This document shows, piece by piece, positions 3,969 to 13,255 of a stretch of 45,736 nucleotides of DNA; within the stretch, counting starts at the first letter, position 1; every line of letters starts with the position of its first letter. The notes under the pieces were generated by a model, which worked only from the letters and a program-made list of their open reading frames with translations, made no database searches and had not been told where the DNA came from. Origin of the DNA: an uncultured Pseudomonadota bacterium (GTDB lineage Bacteria; Desulfobacterota; Syntrophorhabdia; Syntrophorhabdales; Syntrophorhabdaceae); contig CALMFJ010000083.1 in NCBI GenBank assembly GCA_937862865.1, forward strand, positions 1 through 45,736, read 5' to 3'. A program made the translations under genes and the position numbers.

Positions 3969-6608
3969 TTAATTGACCTTTATTGTCGGGCCGGTGCCAT
4001 CCTTGCTCTTCTGGAAGACCCTGCCGATCCTCTCCTGCATGTCCTTAAAGCTTACCACATTATGGGGGTCCCTGTTCACAACATCTATCCCGCGCAGGAA
4101 GGCCCTTCGTATCAGGTATTCCTTGCCGCCTTCGATGATCTTCCCCCGGATGTTGAAGTTGTCGTTCTCCAGCGTGCACCTGATGCCGATCCTGCTATAG
4201 GGGTATTCCTTGAAGAACTTGTTGATCCCGCTCTTGAGGATGGCGCCTATGCCGCCGCTGCCCGTGCCCAGTATCGATATGTTCTCGATGGCATCGACGG
4301 ATACCTTTTGCGACACACCTCTTCCTCTCACCGTGTCGAGATCGAAAACAAACCGGGAGGGCTGACCGTACTCCACCTCGAGGCCTTTCATGGAGCCTTC
4401 GACAACTCCCGTTATCTTCCCGATCTTTATCGTCTCCGTTATCTTCCCGAGATCTATGTTGTTGAACACGATATCGCCCCCTATCCTGCGCGAGGGGGCA
4501 AAAAGGTTTTTGGCGTACATATCGAGCACTTCGATCCTGCCGCCGAAGATATCGACAGACATTCCCCCTTCTGTCCTCAGTTCGCCGTTCTGGTAGGCGA
4601 CCATCGGAAAACGCGCCTTTACGGTACCGGGAAATGTGAAGCCGGTAAGGTCATTGAGCAGCCGGGGAAGATCGATGCCTGTCACTGTCCCGGCAAAAGA
4701 GAACCGGGGAGACCCGCCGAGCACATCTTTCGCAACGACGTCCCGGATGCGTACCGCCCCGCCGTAAAAAGGAACGGAGATCACGCCCGTCGCGATTACA
4801 TCTGTCCCCGATGCGATAACGGGTATCTTCAGCCCGGACAGGCTATATTCCCCTTTTTTGAACCCCGTGATCATGATCCAGCCGAGATCACGGCGTTCAC
4901 CACCGGAACCCGTGCCCGTTTTTCCTCCGGCGGCAAGATCAAAAGGGACGTCGGCTTCCAGGGCTTTGACATCGAGCGATAGCGCCGGAAGCCTGAACGA
5001 CGATGCCGCAAGCTTCACGTTGCCGCTTGCCTCCAGCCTTTTCTCGACAGATGCCAGTGAGACGTCCGCACTCAGGCTGCCATCCACATCGATCCCCTTA
5101 AGCGACGGCACGGTCTCGGCGAGATAATTCGACAAGAAATCTGCAACGATCCTCTTCATTGCCATATCCCGGGCATCTATGTGAAAACGCCAGCCGTCCT
5201 TGCCAAAATAGCCGTCATACGCATACCGGCCGGTGCTGAAGAGGTCGCACACCCCTTTGATGCGCGATCCCGCTTTACTGCTCGTCACAATGTCCGCATT
5301 TGCGGAAAACGCAGCGCGGTCTTTGGACAGGTCCTTATAGTACTTGCCCCAGAGATATTCCCCCGAAGAGACCCGCGACGACACCTTCAGGGATGTCTCC
5401 TTCCCCCCGCGGGGGAGCGTAAAATTCATGATGACGAGGCCGTTTATCCCCTGGGCCGCCTTTGAACCGTCCGGCGACGCAAACCCGCCTTTTTTGATAT
5501 CCATGGTGATGCTCCCCGAAAGCGACGGCGACCCGCCGGAAAGCGTGCCCGCCATGCGGCCATTGAAGGCACCCTGGCCCTGAATAGACCATTTCTTTGC
5601 CTCTTCCTGCGTCATCAGGGATTTGGCCAGCGAAAAAATGCTCGAGAAATTGAGGTCCCGCGTCTCGAGCGACGCGGATATGGGCATCGCCCCTTTGAGC
5701 TTGAGCCGCGCGGCGCCGTTCAGAGTGCCTATGCCGGGCATGGCGATCCGGACATTGTCGGAGACGAGGTCGCCGGTCTTCGTCAGGTACCGGGCACCTA
5801 TCCCGATGGCGGACTTCTTGAGAACGGCCTCCCCGGATTCCGTCAGGAACACAAACTCTCCTATATTGATATCTGACCGGGAAGTCACTATCCGGTCTTT
5901 TTCAAACTGAACGGGGATCGTTAATTTTACATTCTTCATGCCGGCCCTGCCCGCTGCGAAGGCCCCGATATCCAGTTCAAGAACGCCCTTCCCCAGCATA
6001 TCGGGAAAGATGCCGGTCAACTGCAGCCTGCCCCTGCAACTTCCCGTCACAGAGAATCCTGACTTTCCCGGTTCATTGACGCCGATGAGGCCGGTGAACG
6101 ACAGGGTCCCGCCATGTTCGGGGGAGAAATCCTTCACGGTCAGATCGATCTTTTTTAGAGATATCCGCGTGTCTGACCCTTTGAAGAGAAGCGTGAACTC
6201 CCCGTTCTCCATGGTGAGCAGCCGGACCGAAGGTATCCTCTTGATGAATGACAGGTCGGTCTCTGTCTCCTTCCTGTCGCCCACGCGTATGCGTATTTTC
6301 GCGTCCTTGAGGACGATCTTTTCGACATCACCGCGGAAAGCGCCCTGCGGCGTCGTATCCACCGTGACCCGGGAGCTGGCGAAGATAAAATTCCGGTTGC
6401 GCGTATCGGTGAGGGTGAAGCCTCTCAGGTCAGCCCTGACAAGGGGAAAAAAGGAAAATGACTCGGCGTTGATATCGTACCCGAACAGGGGAGCGCTCAG
6501 CATCGAGACCGATCGAAGGAGAAGCGGCGTTCTGGCAAGGACCGCGAGCCCTGCTGCACAAGCAGCAACGAGGATAATGATCGTCAGAACGAACCTCTTG
6601 TTCCTCAT
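3969..6608 (-). CDS. ydbH: YdbH-like AsmA-family intermembrane protein
   Basis: An 879-residue protein with one N-terminal membrane anchor (MRNKRFVLTIIILVAACAAGLAVLA) followed by a long periplasmic region of repeating beta-strands typical of the AsmA/YdbH/TamB superfamily. The C-terminal part (TVKARFPMVAYQNGEL, GGDIVFNNIDLGKIT, YPYSRIGIRCTLENDNFNIRG) matches the YdbH C-terminal domain. E. coli YdbH bridges the two membranes and helps phospholipid transport to the outer membrane together with YnbE and YdbL. The next gene, 21 nt downstream, is a YdbL-family lipoprotein, which supports the same role here. The start at 6608 replaces the upstream ORF-track start because GGAGGGGG precedes this ATG and the anchor then begins the protein. 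Confidence 0.85.
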   Translation of the reverse strand: MRNKRFVLTIIILVAACAAGLAVLARTPLLLRSVSMLSAPLFGYDINAESFSFFPLVRADLRGFTLTDTRNRNFIFASSRVTVDTTPQGAFRGDVEKIVLKDAKIRIRVGDRKETETDLSFIKRIPSVRLLTMENGEFTLLFKGSDTRISLKKIDLTVKDFSPEHGGTLSFTGLIGVNEPGKSGFSVTGSCRGRLQLTGIFPDMLGKGVLELDIGAFAAGRAGMKNVKLTIPVQFEKDRIVTSRSDINIGEFVFLTESGEAVLKKSAIGIGARYLTKTGDLVSDNVRIAMPGIGTLNGAARLKLKGAMPISASLETRDLNFSSIFSLAKSLMTQEEAKKWSIQGQGAFNGRMAGTLSGGSPSLSGSITMDIKKGGFASPDGSKAAQGINGLVIMNFTLPRGGKETSLKVSSRVSSGEYLWGKYYKDLSKDRAAFSANADIVTSSKAGSRIKGVCDLFSTGRYAYDGYFGKDGWRFHIDARDMAMKRIVADFLSNYLAETVPSLKGIDVDGSLSADVSLASVEKRLEASGNVKLAASSFRLPALSLDVKALEADVPFDLAAGGKTGTGSGGERRDLGWIMITGFKKGEYSLSGLKIPVIASGTDVIATGVISVPFYGGAVRIRDVVAKDVLGGSPRFSFAGTVTGIDLPRLLNDLTGFTFPGTVKARFPMVAYQNGELRTEGGMSVDIFGGRIEVLDMYAKNLFAPSRRIGGDIVFNNIDLGKITETIKIGKITGVVEGSMKGLEVEYGQPSRFVFDLDTVRGRGVSQKVSVDAIENISILGTGSGGIGAILKSGINKFFKEYPYSRIGIRCTLENDNFNIRGKIIEGGKEYLIRRAFLRGIDVVNRDPHNVVSFKDMQERIGRVFQKSKDGTGPTIKVN

Positions 6609-6626
6609 GGGCCCCCCTCCGGGGCG

Positions 6627-6669
6627 CGGCCTGCTGCTTAAGCAGGCCGTTTCAGCCACCTGCGGTGGC
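6627..6669. other. Two hairpins in the ydbH-like leader
   Basis: CGGCCTGCT-GCTTA-AGCAGGCCG (9-bp stem) at 6627-6649 is followed by GCCACC-TGC-GGTGGC (6-bp stem) at 6655-6669. They lie in the 163-nt divergent region between the ydbH-like and spermidine-synthase-like genes, next to the ydbH ribosome binding site. They could shape the 5' leader. No T-tract follows, so they are not obvious terminators. Confidence 0.4.
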
Positions 6670-6771: not shown

Positions 6772-9039
6772 ATGCCTTTGGCGCTTATTTTTTCACTGCT
6801 TGTGCTTGGTTTTTCGGGGATCGCGGCACAAACGGTCCTTATCAGGGAAAGCCTCATCATTTTTGGCGGGAACGAACTTTCCCTGGGGATCATCATAGGC
6901 GCGTGGGTCATCTGGGAGGCCCTCGGGGCGTATGCCGGGGGGCGCTTGCCGCGGACAGACGCGAAGGTGACCGGCAGCCTCATAGCCGTGAACATCCTCT
7001 TCATCCTCTTCTTCCCGGCCACCATAGCGGCGATACGGATGCTTAAGATAATGGCCGGGCTTCCGCCCGAAATGTCACTCAGCATCACTTCGATCTTTGC
7101 CTCATCCCTCGTCATCTTTCTGCCGTGCGCATTCACGCACGGCTATGCCTTCACCGCATCCTGCCGCCTCTACGAGCAGACGTCCGCAGCCCGCACTGCG
7201 TCCGCTGCCCGGGGTTATTTCTTCGAAATGGCCGGGACGGTCATCGGCGGCGCTGTCGTGAGCTATGTTCTCATAACCCGGGTCCACCCGGTCCGCACAG
7301 CTTTCCTGGTGTTCGCCATCATGTCGCTCGCGTGCCTTGCCCTCGGCGCTGGCCGCACTGCGGGACCGGGGCCGCGAAAGGCCTTTGGCGCGGCGGGCCT
7401 CGTTCTCACGGCGGCCGCCGTCATATGTATGGCCCGCGGCCTTGACACCTTTATCGAGAACCGGTCGATCGGCGCCGAATGGCACGGCCGCACCATCGTC
7501 TCCTATCAAAACTCGCCTTATCAAAACATCGTCATCACGAAAGAGCGGGAACAATACACATTTTTCACTGACGGGACACCGGCGGCGACCCTGCCCACAC
7601 CCGATATCGTCCGCATCGAGGAGATCGTGCACATACCCTGCCTGGCCCACGGGTCACCCCGGACGGTCCTTATCATCAGCGGAGGCCCCGGTGGTGTCAT
7701 CAGCGAAATGCTCAAATACCCGGTGCTGCGCCGTATCGATTATGTCGAAATAGACCCCGCGTACCTCGCTGCGATCGCACGTGTCCCCTCAAACCTCGTC
7801 AGGTCCGAGCTCAACGATAATCGTGTACGCGTACATTACACGGACGGGAGGCGCTTTGCCAGGGCAACGACGGGCCGTTACGATATCGTACTGTCCGGCG
7901 TTCCCGCTCCCCGCACGCTGCAGGCCAACAGGTTCTTCACCGCCGAGTTCTTCCGCGAGATAAGGAACATACTTGAACCGGACGGCATCTTCGTGTTCAC
8001 TCTGCCCGGCTCCCTCGCCTATTACGACAGGGAGCTCAAGGACATAAACGCCTCCATACTGCGCACGGCGGGAGAGACATTCGGGAGCATCGCGGTCGTT
8101 CCCGGTGAGGAGAACATATTCATGGCATCTGCGGCGAGGACGGCTATCGATCTCTCGCCGGACACGATGGATATGAGGCTCAAGGAGTACGCCCTGCCGC
8201 TTAAACTCATTTCGCTGCCGCATCTTTCCTACCGCCTCGACCCCGAAAAAAGGGAATGGTTCCGGTCGGCAATGAAGGGCTCTGAAGCGAAAACCAATCA
8301 TGACCTTGCACCGATGGGGCTCTGGTACGCGATAGCGTTTGACAATGCCCTCCACGATCCCTCATTGAGGCGGGCCTCTGCATTGCTCGAAAAACACGGC
8401 GTCATATTCTTCCTCGCCGTGACCGCCCTGCTCGCATCTGCCGGGTTTGCATTCCGCACACGATCGGCCGCAGTCCCCGTCTGCTTCGTGACGTTGACGA
8501 CCGGCTTTGCCGTCCTGGTACTCGAATTGCTGCTCATATTCATATACCAGGTATGGTCCGGCTACGTTTTCCACGAGATAGGAATGCTGATAACGATGCT
8601 CATGACCGGCATGGCGCTCGGAGCCCTGTCGGCAGGGAAATTCCTGGACAGGTTCGGCACCGCCCTTCGGGCATTGATGGCCGCTGAGGCGATCCTGGCC
8701 GCTGTATGTCTCGTCGTGCCGGCCATATTCCTCGCCACCGGCATGTACCTCAATCCGGGCCGGCTATCAGCCCGCCTTATGTCCCTCACACTTCTTTTCA
8801 TAGCGGGGTTCTTCGCGGGAATGGAGTACCCCGTTGCCGTGGAAGCGTACAGGAACGTACGGCCGCAACGGACGGCGGTGGGCCCCGTCTACGGGCTCGA
8901 TCTTCTCGGCGGGTTCGCCGGGGGCGTTGCCGGGGGGTTTTTCCTTTTCCCTGTCATGGGGCTCGTAAAAACGTGTATCGTTCTTTGTGCCGTCAAGGTG
9001 TGCGGGATTCTTATGCTGTCATCTCCCCGGAAAAAATAG
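6772..9039 (+). CDS. Polytopic membrane protein with a spermidine-synthase-like domain
   Basis: A 755-residue protein. Residues 1 to about 220 hold six or seven hydrophobic helices starting MPLALIFSLLVLGFSG. The middle (about 240-490) is a Rossmann domain of the polyamine aminopropyltransferase type, with SYQNSPYQNIVI, a glycine loop ISGGPGG and the acidic end of beta-2, YVEIDP. The last 200 residues are again transmembrane helices. In true spermidine synthases the motif after beta-4 carries a catalytic Asp (D-x-x-D-P). Here it reads YDIVLSGVPAP, so that residue is missing and the aminopropyl transfer reaction is doubtful. The ORF-track start at 5938 is an accidental open frame antisense to ydbH. 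ATG 6772 is chosen because the first helix begins there, although the ribosome binding site (GAAGG) is close and weak. AmmeMemoRadiSam genes follow 31 nt downstream. Confidence 0.82.
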   Translation: MPLALIFSLLVLGFSGIAAQTVLIRESLIIFGGNELSLGIIIGAWVIWEALGAYAGGRLPRTDAKVTGSLIAVNILFILFFPATIAAIRMLKIMAGLPPEMSLSITSIFASSLVIFLPCAFTHGYAFTASCRLYEQTSAARTASAARGYFFEMAGTVIGGAVVSYVLITRVHPVRTAFLVFAIMSLACLALGAGRTAGPGPRKAFGAAGLVLTAAAVICMARGLDTFIENRSIGAEWHGRTIVSYQNSPYQNIVITKEREQYTFFTDGTPAATLPTPDIVRIEEIVHIPCLAHGSPRTVLIISGGPGGVISEMLKYPVLRRIDYVEIDPAYLAAIARVPSNLVRSELNDNRVRVHYTDGRRFARATTGRYDIVLSGVPAPRTLQANRFFTAEFFREIRNILEPDGIFVFTLPGSLAYYDRELKDINASILRTAGETFGSIAVVPGEENIFMASAARTAIDLSPDTMDMRLKEYALPLKLISLPHLSYRLDPEKREWFRSAMKGSEAKTNHDLAPMGLWYAIAFDNALHDPSLRRASALLEKHGVIFFLAVTALLASAGFAFRTRSAAVPVCFVTLTTGFAVLVLELLLIFIYQVWSGYVFHEIGMLITMLMTGMALGALSAGKFLDRFGTALRALMAAEAILAAVCLVVPAIFLATGMYLNPGRLSARLMSLTLLFIAGFFAGMEYPVAVEAYRNVRPQRTAVGPVYGLDLLGGFAGGVAGGFFLFPVMGLVKTCIVLCAVKVCGILMLSSPRKK

Positions 9040-9045
9040 TATAAT
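9040..9045 (+). promoter_or_regulatory. Possible -10 element TATAAT before amrS-like gene
   Basis: A perfect TATAAT overlaps the stop codon region of the spermidine-synthase-like gene, 25 nt before the next start. The possible -35 (CTGTCA at 9016-9021, spacing 18) is poor. It may give the radical SAM gene its own transcript. Confidence 0.35.
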
Positions 9046-9070
9046 AGCAGGGAATACATAAGGTTTTACG

Positions 9071-10186
9071 ATGACGGAAAAAATGAGAAGACGGGATTTC
9101 ATAAAGATCGCCAGCCTTGCGCCCCTTATGCTCTCCCTTGATCTGCGTACAGCTTCGGGTGCGGGACCCGGGCCGGGGTACCAGGAAGCCAGGTACTACA
9201 AGAAAGGCCCCGCAAAGATCGTGGACTGCCAGCTGTGTCCCCGTCAGTGCACCCTTCCCGACGGTGAAACGGGGTTCTGCCGGGCGCGCAAGAATATCGG
9301 GGGCAGGCTCTATTCTCTCGGGTACGGGTCGCCGTGCGCGGTCCATATCGACCCCATCGAAAAGAAGCCGTTCTTCAATGTCCTTCCCCGGACATTGTCT
9401 TTGTCCCTGGCAAGCGCCGGCTGCAACCTGCGCTGCAAGTTCTGCCAGAACTGGCAGATATCGCAGGCATCGCCGCTCGATACGACCAACATGAAGATGT
9501 CCCCGGATGATGTCGTGAACGCGGCCGTGCAGAAGGGGTGCCGGAGCATAGCCTACACCTATACCGAACCGTCCAATTTTTACGAGTATATGTTCGACAT
9601 CGCGAAAATCGCCCGAAGGCGCGGCATTATCAACGTATCGCACTCGAACGGGTATATCAACCAGGCACCGCTGAAGGAGCTCTCCAGGTACATGGACGCA
9701 GTCAACATCGACCTGAAGGGCTTTTCGCCCAATTTCTATGCCACGATGTGCGAGGGTGAGCTCGACCCGGTCCTCTTATCGATCAAGACCCTCAAGCGTT
9801 CGGGGGTCTGGGTGGAGATAACAAACCTTGTCCTGCAGGGCTACAACGACGACGAGAGGATGATAACAGCAATGTGCGCCTGGGTCGGCAAAGAGGCCGG
9901 TGCCGATACGCCCGTCCACTTCTCCCGCTTCTATCCCATGTATAAACTGACCGGCGTATCGCCCACACCGCTCAGAAGCCTTGAACGCGCCCGGGAGATC
10001 GCGATCGCCTCGGGCCTCAAGTTTGCGTACATAGGAAATATTCCCGGCCATCCTGGAGAGAACACCTACTGCCCGAAATGCAAGAAGCTCCTCGTTCAAA
10101 GATCGGGTTATAATGTACTTGCCAACGTTATAAAGGACGGTAAATGCCCGGATTGCTCGACACGGATAGGGGGGATATGGAAATGA
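9071..10186 (+). CDS. amrS: AmmeMemoRadiSam system radical SAM enzyme with Tat signal
   Basis: A 371-residue protein. The N-terminus MTEKMRRRDFIKIASLAPLM has the twin-arginine motif RRDFIK followed by a hydrophobic stretch and a possible cleavage region near SGAGPG. A Cys-rich segment follows (CQLCPRQCTLPDGETGFC), then the radical SAM cluster CNLRCKFC (CX3CX2C) near residue 118. Late Cys pairs (CPKCKK, CPDC) close the protein. The family is the pyruvate formate-lyase-activase-like radical SAM protein of the AmmeMemoRadiSam system, whose reaction is unknown. Its usual partners, Memo and AMMECR1, are encoded by the next gene with a 4-nt ATGA overlap. Export of a radical SAM enzyme is unusual because SAM and reductant are cytoplasmic. 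The signal is clear in sequence, but cleavage is unproven. Confidence 0.92.
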   Translation: MTEKMRRRDFIKIASLAPLMLSLDLRTASGAGPGPGYQEARYYKKGPAKIVDCQLCPRQCTLPDGETGFCRARKNIGGRLYSLGYGSPCAVHIDPIEKKPFFNVLPRTLSLSLASAGCNLRCKFCQNWQISQASPLDTTNMKMSPDDVVNAAVQKGCRSIAYTYTEPSNFYEYMFDIAKIARRRGIINVSHSNGYINQAPLKELSRYMDAVNIDLKGFSPNFYATMCEGELDPVLLSIKTLKRSGVWVEITNLVLQGYNDDERMITAMCAWVGKEAGADTPVHFSRFYPMYKLTGVSPTPLRSLERAREIAIASGLKFAYIGNIPGHPGENTYCPKCKKLLVQRSGYNVLANVIKDGKCPDCSTRIGGIWK

Positions 10187-11664
10187 TGAGAACAAGGGAC
10201 CGCATTCAACTCCTTGCATTGTTTGTTGTCGCCTTTCTGCTTCTTTCGGGCCCTCCTGCCGATGCCGCGCAGGCGGGCGTGCATGCAAAAAAGGCGGATT
10301 TTGCCGGTTCTTTCTATCCCGCTGACCGGCATGAGCTCGAAAAGGCTGTCGACGGGTACCTTAAGGATGCCGCCTCGGCGGGGTGCACGGGCACGCCCGG
10401 CACCTTCGCGGTCATGGCCCCCCATGCGGGATACATCTATTCGGGACAGATCGCGGCATGCTCGTACGCGGCGCTCAAAGGAAAAAAGGCAAGAACGGTT
10501 ATCCTGCTCGGCTCGAGCCACCGGGCCCTTTTTGACGGCGTTGCGCTCTACCCGCAAGGAAGCTGGGAGACCCCCCTCGGCAGTCTCGCTATTGATACCG
10601 CCGCGGCAAAATCCCTTGCATCGTCCGGCGGGATCATAAAGGCCCTGCCATCCGCTTTCGACGGGGAACATTCCCTCGAGGTCCAGCTCCCCTTTCTGCA
10701 GAGAACGCTGAAGGATGTGAAGATAGTCCCGCTGCTCACGGGGCGCATCGACAAGCAGGGCGTCATTCAATTGTCCGATGCCCTGAAGGGGATCATTGCG
10801 AGGGATAAGGGCCGGACGGTGCTCGTCGTATCGTCCGACATGTCGCACTATCACACATACAGCGCGGCGAAGGCTATGGACGTGTCGACTTTAAGGCAGA
10901 TCGAAGGTCTTGCATGGGAAACACTTTATGATAAAATTGAGGGCCGGGAGAACGAACTGTGCGGTGCGCCCGCAGTGATTGCCGTCATGAAGGCAACGCA
11001 TGATATCGGCGGAGAAGCACAGGTCCTCGGTTACGCAAACTCAGGGGACACCGCCGGGGACAGGTCCCGGGTGGTCGGATACGGCTCGGTGCTTTTCGCG
11101 ACGCCCGGGCATAAAGACCTTCCGCCTCTTACGGACGCCCAGAAGAAAAAGCTCCTTTCCCTTGCCCGGAAGGCCCTCAATGAATATGTTTCCGCGAAAA
11201 CCACCCCGCACGTCGAAATGAGAGATACCCGGCTTACGGAAAGGTCGGGTGTTTTTGTCACCCTGAACAAGCACGGGCAGCTCAGGGGATGCATAGGGTA
11301 TATCAAGCCTGTCGCACCCCTTTACCGGTCCGTCATCGAGATGACCGTGGCGGCCGCATCGCGAGACACAAGGTTCCTCCCCGTGACGGAAAAAGAGGTC
11401 AGGGACATAGAGATCGAGATATCCGTGCTATCCCCCCTTAAGCTCATACGGTCACCGAATGAGATCGTGGTGGGAAAACACGGGCTTTACATGGCGAAGG
11501 GCGGCTCTTCAGGCCTTCTTTTGCCGCAGGTAGCGACACAGCACAGGTGGAACAGGGAGGAATTTCTCCGCAATACGTGTTCAAAGGCCGGGCTGCCCGA
11601 AGATGCGTGGAAGGACAAGGATACAAAGATATACATTTTTTCAGCACAGATATTCTCAGAGTAG
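10183..11664 (+). CDS. Secreted Memo-AMMECR1 fusion (AmmeMemoRadiSam proteins B and A)
   Basis: A 493-residue protein. The start at 10183 gives an ATGA overlap with the radical SAM gene and is preceded by AGGGGGGAT. The N-terminus (IQLLALFVVAFLLLSGPPADAAQA) is a Sec signal peptide. Residues 30-300 are a Memo domain, related to extradiol dioxygenases, with possible metal-binding histidines in MAPHAGYIYSGQ, GSSHRALFDG and SSDMSHYHTY, and a Cys in LCGAPAV. Residues 320-490 are an AMMECR1 domain with its hallmark LRGCIGYI. Fusion of the two, next to the radical SAM protein, is the standard layout of this uncharacterised system. The signal peptide places this version in the periplasm, in line with the Tat signal of the partner. 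Confidence 0.92.
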   Translation: MMRTRDRIQLLALFVVAFLLLSGPPADAAQAGVHAKKADFAGSFYPADRHELEKAVDGYLKDAASAGCTGTPGTFAVMAPHAGYIYSGQIAACSYAALKGKKARTVILLGSSHRALFDGVALYPQGSWETPLGSLAIDTAAAKSLASSGGIIKALPSAFDGEHSLEVQLPFLQRTLKDVKIVPLLTGRIDKQGVIQLSDALKGIIARDKGRTVLVVSSDMSHYHTYSAAKAMDVSTLRQIEGLAWETLYDKIEGRENELCGAPAVIAVMKATHDIGGEAQVLGYANSGDTAGDRSRVVGYGSVLFATPGHKDLPPLTDAQKKKLLSLARKALNEYVSAKTTPHVEMRDTRLTERSGVFVTLNKHGQLRGCIGYIKPVAPLYRSVIEMTVAAASRDTRFLPVTEKEVRDIEIEISVLSPLKLIRSPNEIVVGKHGLYMAKGGSSGLLLPQVATQHRWNREEFLRNTCSKAGLPEDAWKDKDTKIYIFSAQIFSE

Positions 11665-11694: not shown

Positions 11695-12060
11695 ATGAAG
11701 ATCAGCTTTGTGGTACCGACCGGAGATGTTCTCAACGAGGCCAGGGACAAATTCCTCACGTCCTGCATGGGCGGCTGCTGGCATGAAACGACAGGCGAGG
11801 CCGTCCGGAGGTTTGCGTCCAGCGGGTTTATCTGCAGCAAATGCGGCATGTTTTTCACGACCCAGAACGATTATTCGATGCCCGAAGATTTTTTGAAGCT
11901 GTACCAATGGGCCAAAAACGATAGCGGCCTCGATGAATTTACAAACAGTTTCCGGCCCGCTGATTTTATGAATGAAAAAAGGGGACCGCATGCGAGAAAA
12001 GAATTCGCCGACGGCCTTTACAAAATACTTCTGGCCCGGAGGGAAGTGAACCATGTTTGA
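11695..12060 (+). CDS. Unrecognised small zinc-ribbon-like protein
   Basis: A 121-residue predicted cytoplasmic protein that I do not recognise. It carries four cysteines in a CX3C (SCMGGC) and CX2C (CSKC) arrangement separated by 18 residues, which suggests one zinc ribbon. The remainder is charged and helical (EDFLKLYQWAKN). The start has a good AAGGAGA site. The stop overlaps the start of the M29 aminopeptidase gene (ATGTTTGA), so the two are probably translated together and may act on the same substrate or as partner proteins. Confidence 0.75.
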   Translation: MKISFVVPTGDVLNEARDKFLTSCMGGCWHETTGEAVRRFASSGFICSKCGMFFTTQNDYSMPEDFLKLYQWAKNDSGLDEFTNSFRPADFMNEKRGPHARKEFADGLYKILLARREVNHV

Positions 12061-13255
12061 GAAAGAGGTGCTGGAAAAATACGCCGATGTTCTGCTGTGG
12101 GGATTGTCGACCGCCCGAAAGGGTGCGTTCAAAAAGGGCGACGTGGTCCTCATCCAGTATGACCCGGCAGCGCTTGAACTGGCCGAGACGCTCTACCGCA
12201 AGATACTGGAAAGGGGTATGTACCCTCTTTCGCGGATGGGGCTTACCAACACGATGGAGCACACCTTTTATGAAATGGCGAGCGAGCAGCAGCTCAAATT
12301 CCTGCCGCCGGGCGATAAGGAGCTGTACCGGGCCATCAACGGCCGGATCTTTCTTCGCGCACCCGCATCGCTCACATATCTGAAGGATATCGACCCGTCA
12401 CGGATAGGGAAGGTCCTCGTTTCACGCAAGCCCTTCCGGGAAATAATGGACAAGCGGGAAGAAAAAGGAGCGTACAGCTGGACGTTATGCACCTACCCGA
12501 CGGCAGGCCTTGCAAAACAGGCAAAAATGCCGCTTTCGGCGTATGCCGCGCAGATCAGGAAGGCCTGTTTCCTCGACCTTAAGGACCCCGTCCGGAAATG
12601 GGAGGCCATCCATGCACAGGCGGCCGGGATCAAGAAATGGCTGAGCGGCCTCAAGGTAAAATATTTCCGGGTTGTTTCCCGTAACATGGACCTCATCCTC
12701 ACGCCCGGTGAAAAGAGAAAGTGGGCGGGCATTTCCGGCCACAATATACCGAGCTTCGAGGTTTTCCTGTCACCGGACTTTCGCGGTACCGACGGCGTCT
12801 ATTTCGCAAACCTGCCTTCCTTTCGAAGCGGCAATTACGTCGAGGGGGTGCGCCTCGTGTTCAGGAAAGGGAAGGTCGTCGAAGCCGAGGCAAAGAAAGG
12901 TGGAGAGTTCCTGAAAAAACAGGTGGCGCTGGACAAAGGGGCCTCGCGGGTCGGTGAGTTCTCGCTCACGGACAAACGGTTTTCCCTCATCGACCGTTTT
13001 ATGGCAGACACGCTGTTCGACGAGAATTTCGGGGGCACCGACGGTAACTGCCATCTCGCGCTCGGCGCGTCATACAGCGATACGTTCAGCGGCAACCCGG
13101 CGCGTTTAACGAGAGAGATGAAGGCCCGGCTCGGTTTCAATGACTCGGCCCTGCACTGGGACCTCGTCAACACCGAACCGAAAACGGTGATTGCCCGCCT
13201 GGCGAACGGCAGGGAAATGGTCATTTATGAAAAAGGGGTTTTTCAGAACGCTTAA
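12053..13255 (+). CDS. M29-family metallo-aminopeptidase
   Basis: A 400-residue cytoplasmic enzyme of peptidase family M29 (AmpS/aminopeptidase T type), which removes N-terminal residues from peptides using two divalent metal ions. The expected ligands are visible: the Glu of NIPSFEVFLSP, the Glu of YVEGVRL, the His of CHLALGASYSDT and the HWD near residue 375. Length agrees with the family (about 370-410). The start overlaps the preceding small zinc-ribbon gene by 8 nt. The first 150 residues (ADVLLWGLSTARKGAFKKGDVVLIQ) form the family's N-terminal domain. No signal peptide is present. Confidence 0.92.
   Translation: MFEKEVLEKYADVLLWGLSTARKGAFKKGDVVLIQYDPAALELAETLYRKILERGMYPLSRMGLTNTMEHTFYEMASEQQLKFLPPGDKELYRAINGRIFLRAPASLTYLKDIDPSRIGKVLVSRKPFREIMDKREEKGAYSWTLCTYPTAGLAKQAKMPLSAYAAQIRKACFLDLKDPVRKWEAIHAQAAGIKKWLSGLKVKYFRVVSRNMDLILTPGEKRKWAGISGHNIPSFEVFLSPDFRGTDGVYFANLPSFRSGNYVEGVRLVFRKGKVVEAEAKKGGEFLKKQVALDKGASRVGEFSLTDKRFSLIDRFMADTLFDENFGGTDGNCHLALGASYSDTFSGNPARLTREMKARLGFNDSALHWDLVNTEPKTVIARLANGREMVIYEKGVFQNA

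Follow-up and report, generated by a model that had tools for sequence, protein, structure and literature searches.

A predicted extracytoplasmic AmmeMemoRadiSam system and its conserved SpeE-like membrane partner

Radical-SAM enzymes are regarded as cytoplasmic, and no supply of SAM or of low-potential electrons is known outside the cytoplasm. A locus from an uncultured bacterium of the Syntrophorhabdaceae raises the question of whether such an enzyme can be exported all the same and, if so, what would serve it there. We analyzed contig CALMFJ010000083.1, a stretch of 45,736 nucleotides that is called the window in the following. An earlier note on this DNA had described AmrS, the radical-SAM enzyme of an AmmeMemoRadiSam system, with a Tat motif (RRRDFIK) and next to it a Memo-AMMECR1 fusion with a Sec signal peptide. 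It had left two ways out of the dilemma, namely SAM-independent chemistry or a Tat-like region that serves as an uncleaved membrane anchor. The coordinates, the frame and the Tat motif of AmrS are as described there. The cassette at 6772-11664 begins, however, with a gene for a large membrane protein directly upstream of AmrS, which the note did not mention. This protein, SpdTM, is the most informative part of the locus; the order is SpdTM, AmrS, fusion (Table 1).

Table 1. Features of the cassette in the window and of related loci. Positions without a locus name refer to the window.
Feature	Position	Strand	Remarks
SpdTM	6772..9039	+	755 aa; 14 predicted TM helices; SpeE-like domain between TM7 and TM8; PF01564; conserved partner of exported AmrS
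SpdTM residues 223-540, SpeE-like domain with predicted periplasmic location	7438..8391	+	E326/D358 kept, amine-site aspartates mostly lost
AmrS, AmmeMemoRadiSam radical-SAM enzyme with Tat signal	9071..10186	+	371 aa; TIGR04337, PF04055
Tat signal region of AmrS (MTEKMRRRDFIKIASLAPLMLSLDLRTASGA...)	9071..9172	+	RR codons 9089-9094; RRxF[ILV][KR] in 27/27 orthologues
N-terminal four Cys of AmrS, C53/C56/C60/C70	9227..9280	+	invariant in exported and cytoplasmic groups
Radical-SAM CX3CX2C motif of AmrS (C118, C122, C125)	9422..9445	+	100% (rounded) in 110 exported AmrS
C-terminal four-Cys motif of AmrS (C334, C337, C359, C362)	10070..10156	+	97-99% in exported group
Memo-AMMECR1 fusion, predicted exported (Sec signal)	10186..11664	+	TIGR04336 268 bits, TIGR04335 190 bits
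Sec signal peptide of fusion (MRTRDRIQLLALFVVAFLLLSGPPADA)	10186..10266	+	
Memo domain, metal-ligand-type residues H80, H112, C259	10291..11097	+	from alignment
AMMECR1 domain with LRGCIG	11149..11655	+	
CxxCH-branch AmrS loci	L176-L180, L206-L218, L220, L225, L100, L123		
Second-family genes overlapping a SpdTM paralogue	L236:7947-9080, L237:5094-6191, L238:5053-6126		
Second-family genes beside exported AmrS	L051:6025-7089, L053:5888-6952, L075:5270-6322		

AmrS matched TIGR04337 with 364.2 bits (cut-off 220) over model positions 2-333 of 349, and its Memo and AMMECR1 partners are found in the fusion directly downstream, which matched TIGR04336 and TIGR04335. The system resembles the cytoplasmic AmmeMemoRadiSam in that all three domains score above the curated cut-offs and the catalytic-type motifs are intact. 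It differs in the Tat signal on AmrS, in the fusion and predicted Sec export of Memo and AMMECR1, in the conserved SpdTM, and in that the exported AmrS proteins form a separate group with conserved residues of their own (W271, F284, R286 and W370). The closest solved relatives of the radical-SAM domain by sequence are pyruvate formate-lyase activating enzyme (3c8f, E 1.2e-13) and related glycyl-radical activases. Unlike these, AmrS has additional four-Cys motifs at both ends, of which the N-terminal one may hold an auxiliary cluster, and the Tat signal; we noticed no glycyl-radical enzyme beside AmrS.

The SAM-site motifs E166-P167, D214 and K216 are intact in the AmrS of the window. Together with CX3CX2C and H283 they are 96-100% conserved across the 110 exported copies, so that a degenerate AmrS could be ruled out. 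Of the 111 columns that are invariant in cytoplasmic AmrS, 57 stay at 90% or more in the exported copies, including the radical-SAM signature residues and both four-Cys motifs. Judged by its sequence, the exported AmrS is a catalytically intact enzyme, and nothing in it suggests the SAM-independent chemistry that had been considered. In the fusion, which likely starts at 10183-10186 and not at the first in-frame ATG (10144), the Memo ligand residues and LRGCIG are kept as well; in the alignment H80 and H112 are retained and C259 is nearly invariant. By motif, these three residues would correspond to H49, H81 and C244, the Fe/Cu ligands of human MEMO1 (PMC11081632). The claim of intact motifs was thus correct for both proteins.

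The AmrS leader MTEKMRRRDFIKIASLAPLML... precedes a complete enzyme; homology to AmrS begins only at residue 41, and the leader is therefore an addition to it. The twin-arginine motif is present in every one of the 27 orthologues, which come from the genus, family and order of the source genome, and because the RR pair is invariant a wrong start codon could be ruled out. Over the same 27 proteins the mean identity to the AmrS of the window is only 34% in the h- and c-regions, compared with 75% over the first 20 residues of the core. A short h-region, which by eye contains a proline in nearly all orthologues, is unlike a stable anchor; a clear AxA cleavage site is missing in many relatives. A conserved motif of the SRRxFLK type and a host genome with TatC (two matches) are both found, as in Tat substrates. 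In a contrast set of 40 further AmrS regions the leader was absent from 34. Selection thus appears to maintain the leader as a Tat signal.

A search with an AmrS alignment gave 80 named loci; these were chosen by similarity to exported AmrS and are biased towards exported copies. The cassette genes recur often in these loci, across about 20 named phyla, and the AmrS leaders are of Tat, KR or Sec type. The exported cassette is not a local oddity but recurs in many phyla. The flank N-terminal to the h-region is more positive than the C-terminal one in Tat-type (54 to 7) and in Sec-type leaders (19 to 1). Furthermore, TatC was detected in all 16 sampled genomes with Tat-type AmrS but was not found in 15 of the 23 with Sec-type leaders (P 2.5e-5, Fisher's test, which ignores kinship; incomplete genomes are a caveat). 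This exchange suggests that export itself is conserved, rather than one pathway. A branch of 20 genes, plus L100 and L123, carries CxxCH and further histidines between the Tat signal and the AmrS core (Table 1). PF01578 cytochrome c assembly proteins were present in four of four CxxCH genomes tested and in none of two Omnitrophota without the motif. Covalent attachment of haem c happens outside the cytoplasm; hence, if these motifs bind haem c, AmrS is outside, although CxxCH can also bind other metals.

The Sec signal peptide of the fusion, which the earlier note had seen, is conserved in exported relatives, and several signal peptides of such fusions are lipoprotein-like. The expectation that exported AmrS always accompanies an exported fusion holds broadly. 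The Bacteroidota loci L107, L110 and L128 have no signal on either protein and no SpdTM nearby (the L128 start was placed by eye), in keeping with it; L085 and L098 depart from it since AmrS has no signal while that of the fusion is not missing. Taken together, several lines of sequence evidence support the export of the system, and AmrS and the fusion are very probably exported.

The contrast set allowed us to compare the neighbors of exported and cytoplasmic AmrS in regions that extend 5 kb or more to either side. Among 44 exported AmrS genes, 35 have SpdTM no more than 5 kb away, compared with none of 23 cytoplasmic ones (P 5e-11, not corrected for kinship). Memo or AMMECR1 was found near 31 of 44 exported and 3 of 23 cytoplasmic genes, and the latter three are Bacteroidota nested in the exported group. 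On a tree of the AmrS core (156 rows, quick method, unrooted) the labels exported and cytoplasmic require 5 changes, compared with 35 in shuffles, so that export clusters on the tree, and the cytoplasmic clade has no leader. SpdTM, AmrS and the fusion make up one conserved cassette, with SpdTM in 16 of 17 regions from the taxonomic order of the source genome; in the seventeenth (L041) a contig end cuts the locus and a SpdTM fragment is still present. At the level of genomes, 41 relatives encode a Tat-type radical-SAM enzyme and full-length SpdTM occurs in 39 of them, compared with 3 of 19 without such an enzyme (hand count; Fisher's test, ignoring kinship). In G005 and G012 SpdTM is at a contig end, while G034 is a real exception to the pairing; G059 lacks SpdTM although its AmrS is of Tat type, and in several genomes SpdTM is located away from AmrS.

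The source genome encodes a second AmrS, a leaderless paralogue in which the N-terminal extension is absent and which adjoins a Lon-like gene (a call made by eye), as well as a stand-alone and a divergent Memo. Because it keeps these genes, the exported set is an addition to the cytoplasmic one. The third, divergent Memo homologue (G000:C113:20067-20915) is part of a 420-aa ORF, and the ORFs measure about 400-480 aa across relatives. An 896-aa protein that looks AsmA-like by eye (3969-6659, minus strand) had no match in Pfam or NCBIfam; within the genus, six loci have it beside the cassette. Eight or nine related loci have an M29 aminopeptidase-type gene (12053-13255 in the window, PF02073) behind the cassette. 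A DUF362-type gene is found just 5' of Tat-type AmrS in L067, L093, L101, L104, L111, L113 and L170 (PF04015 confirmed for L170 and L093).

Hydropathy analysis of 56 SpdTM homologues gave a soluble domain with seven helices on either side. Lys and Arg make up 15.1% of the predicted inner loops and 6.1% of the outer ones; the difference has the same direction in all 56 homologues and also in nine additional SpdTM proteins that are not partners of AmrS. These positive-inside counts place the SpeE-like domain outside, and a periplasmic location is likely. The AF2 model has a pLDDT of 92.8 and a pTM of 0.93; DSSP drew the last two helices as one. In a Foldseek search the soluble domain resembled spermidine synthases (TMt about 0.75), and among the matches listed only this domain was matched, the transmembrane part remaining unmatched.

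SpdTM has the SpeE fold and the adenosyl site in common with spermidine synthases and membrane SpeE-like proteins (PF01564, PRK03612, NF037959). It scored 43.4 bits against NF037959, "fused MFS/spermidine synthase" (cut-off 40), and 91.6 bits against TIGR00417 (cut-off 249.55). E326 and D358, which we take to correspond to the adenosyl-binding residues of SpeE, are kept in 53 and 54 of the 56 homologues. In contrast to spermidine synthase, the amine-site and catalytic aspartates (GGGDGG, DxxDP) are mostly lost and are replaced by P306, G376 and A379 in the window, in a domain that is predicted to be periplasmic. The first catalytic Asp is kept in only 5 of 56 homologues; the position equivalent to D176 in the amine site is still D or E in 29. 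We do not claim the invariant R387 as a ligand of the SAM carboxylate, because SpeE from T. thermophilus has a nearby Arg too.

SpdTM is not confined to AmrS. In G042, G040 and G038 the gene of a SpdTM paralogue overlaps that of another radical-SAM enzyme of 357-377 aa. These enzymes form a second family of Tat type, members of which also occur beside exported AmrS (Table 1). The two members scanned matched PF04055 and had no NCBIfam match. Upstream of the overlapping pairs are two small membrane proteins, one of which matched Gate, "Nucleoside recognition", in the two loci scanned. That two exported radical-SAM families have SpdTM in common points to the supply of something required by both, and SAM would be the obvious candidate. 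On the strength of the observed association, we consider SpdTM very likely to be a functional partner of exported radical-SAM enzymes; that it supplies SAM is a tentative proposal, for which the chances are somewhat below even.

The explanation that we favor, with a probability slightly above even, is that the genes at 6772-11664 encode an extracytoplasmic AmmeMemoRadiSam system in which SpdTM binds or supplies SAM. AmrS would acquire its fold and its Fe-S cluster(s) in the cytoplasm before leaving through Tat, and the fusion would leave through Sec. Both would act beside SpdTM on the periplasmic side of the cytoplasmic membrane. The SpeE-like domain of SpdTM would bind an adenosyl ligand, most likely SAM, and the 14 helices would most likely move this ligand across the membrane or hold it for AmrS. 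SAM is not known to occur in the periplasm, and we know of no SAM transporter that is built like SpdTM. It also counts against this explanation that a Sec-type AmrS would need its clusters inserted after translocation.

The electron donors would lie in the membrane or the periplasm and vary with the lineage: a fused haem motif of the c type, NosR-like flavoproteins, or proteins that resemble CcdA/DsbD. DsbD_2 profile matches occur near 16 of 26 Sec-type loci, and matches to the NosR-like profile (DsbD_2/FMN_bind/Fer4_5 protein) near 14 of 26, partly in the same proteins, and near 4 of 7 loci with a split AmrS. The AmrS of the window has no CxxCH motif, and no electron donor was seen in the window. 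From these associations, lineage-specific donors are a possibility to which we give limited weight. NapH-, Nos- and DsbD-type proteins are part of flavinylated extracytosolic electron-transfer systems (PMC8238504). The NosR-like and DsbD_2 proteins that adjoin Sec-type and split AmrS resemble these systems, in some lineages only and not in the window. The term radical SAM was absent from the flavinylation literature that we searched, and a literature search of partial coverage returned no paper on a periplasmic, extracytoplasmic, secreted or exported radical SAM enzyme. Memo gene contexts were reportedly treated by Burroughs et al. 2019, JBC.

The main counter-evidence to export comes from seven loci (L076, L088, L096, L108, L114, L119, L124) in which AmrS is split. 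The TM segment and an EAxYY-like strand are on the preceding ORF, and the downstream ORF, which encodes the core, lacks a signal; how a leaderless core would get out is unexplained. Stop and start overlap in most of these loci, and in L076, L088 and L108 a NosR-like ORF ends in a TM helix and the N-terminal strand of AmrS. One programmed frameshift common to all is unsupported, since the frame relation varies between loci. The split genes favor the reading that the leaders are membrane anchors and that the catalytic domain remains cytoplasmic, as do the unclear cleavage sites and some Sec-type leaders that resemble uncleaved TM helices. This reading, also raised by the earlier note, fits badly with the invariant RR and the short proline-containing h-region, with the N-in/C-out charges, the CxxCH insertion behind the Tat signal, the partly lipoprotein-like signal peptides of the fusions and the Sec-type leaders in genomes without TatC. 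We consider it quite improbable.

Export without SAM chemistry is scarcely more probable. AmrS would then be an Fe-S or metal-handling protein for a periplasmic Memo. This would remove the need for SAM and low-potential electrons outside the cytoplasm, and it is in line with the extra four-Cys motifs and with the binding of Fe or Cu by human MEMO1 (PMC11081632); the near-complete conservation of the signature residues in the exported copies and the co-occurrence of a SAM-binding-like partner argue against it. It is also unlikely, if less so, that AmrS is exported pre-loaded with tightly bound SAM and its cluster for a single or a few turnovers, and that SpdTM is a periplasmic transferase acting on a product or lipid, without any supply of SAM. 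Tat is established to export folded, cofactor-loaded proteins, the SpeE-like domain has a transferase fold, and the acidic residue at the D176 position persists in about half of the homologues. However, the first catalytic Asp is lost in 51 of 56, and the pairing of SpdTM with two Tat-type radical-SAM families is easier to reconcile with a need that both share than with a common product.

If the proposed extracytoplasmic system is correct, it is a conserved one by which cells place SAM chemistry outside. A group of "membrane spermidine synthases" would gain a candidate function, and there would be a concrete setting in which to learn the role of Memo and AMMECR1, which have human relatives. 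More speculatively, there could be a class of extracytoplasmic radical-SAM machinery in many phyla, comprising at least two exported families, a membrane protein dedicated to moving SAM or presenting it on the periplasmic side, and lineage-specific haem, flavin or thiol donors.
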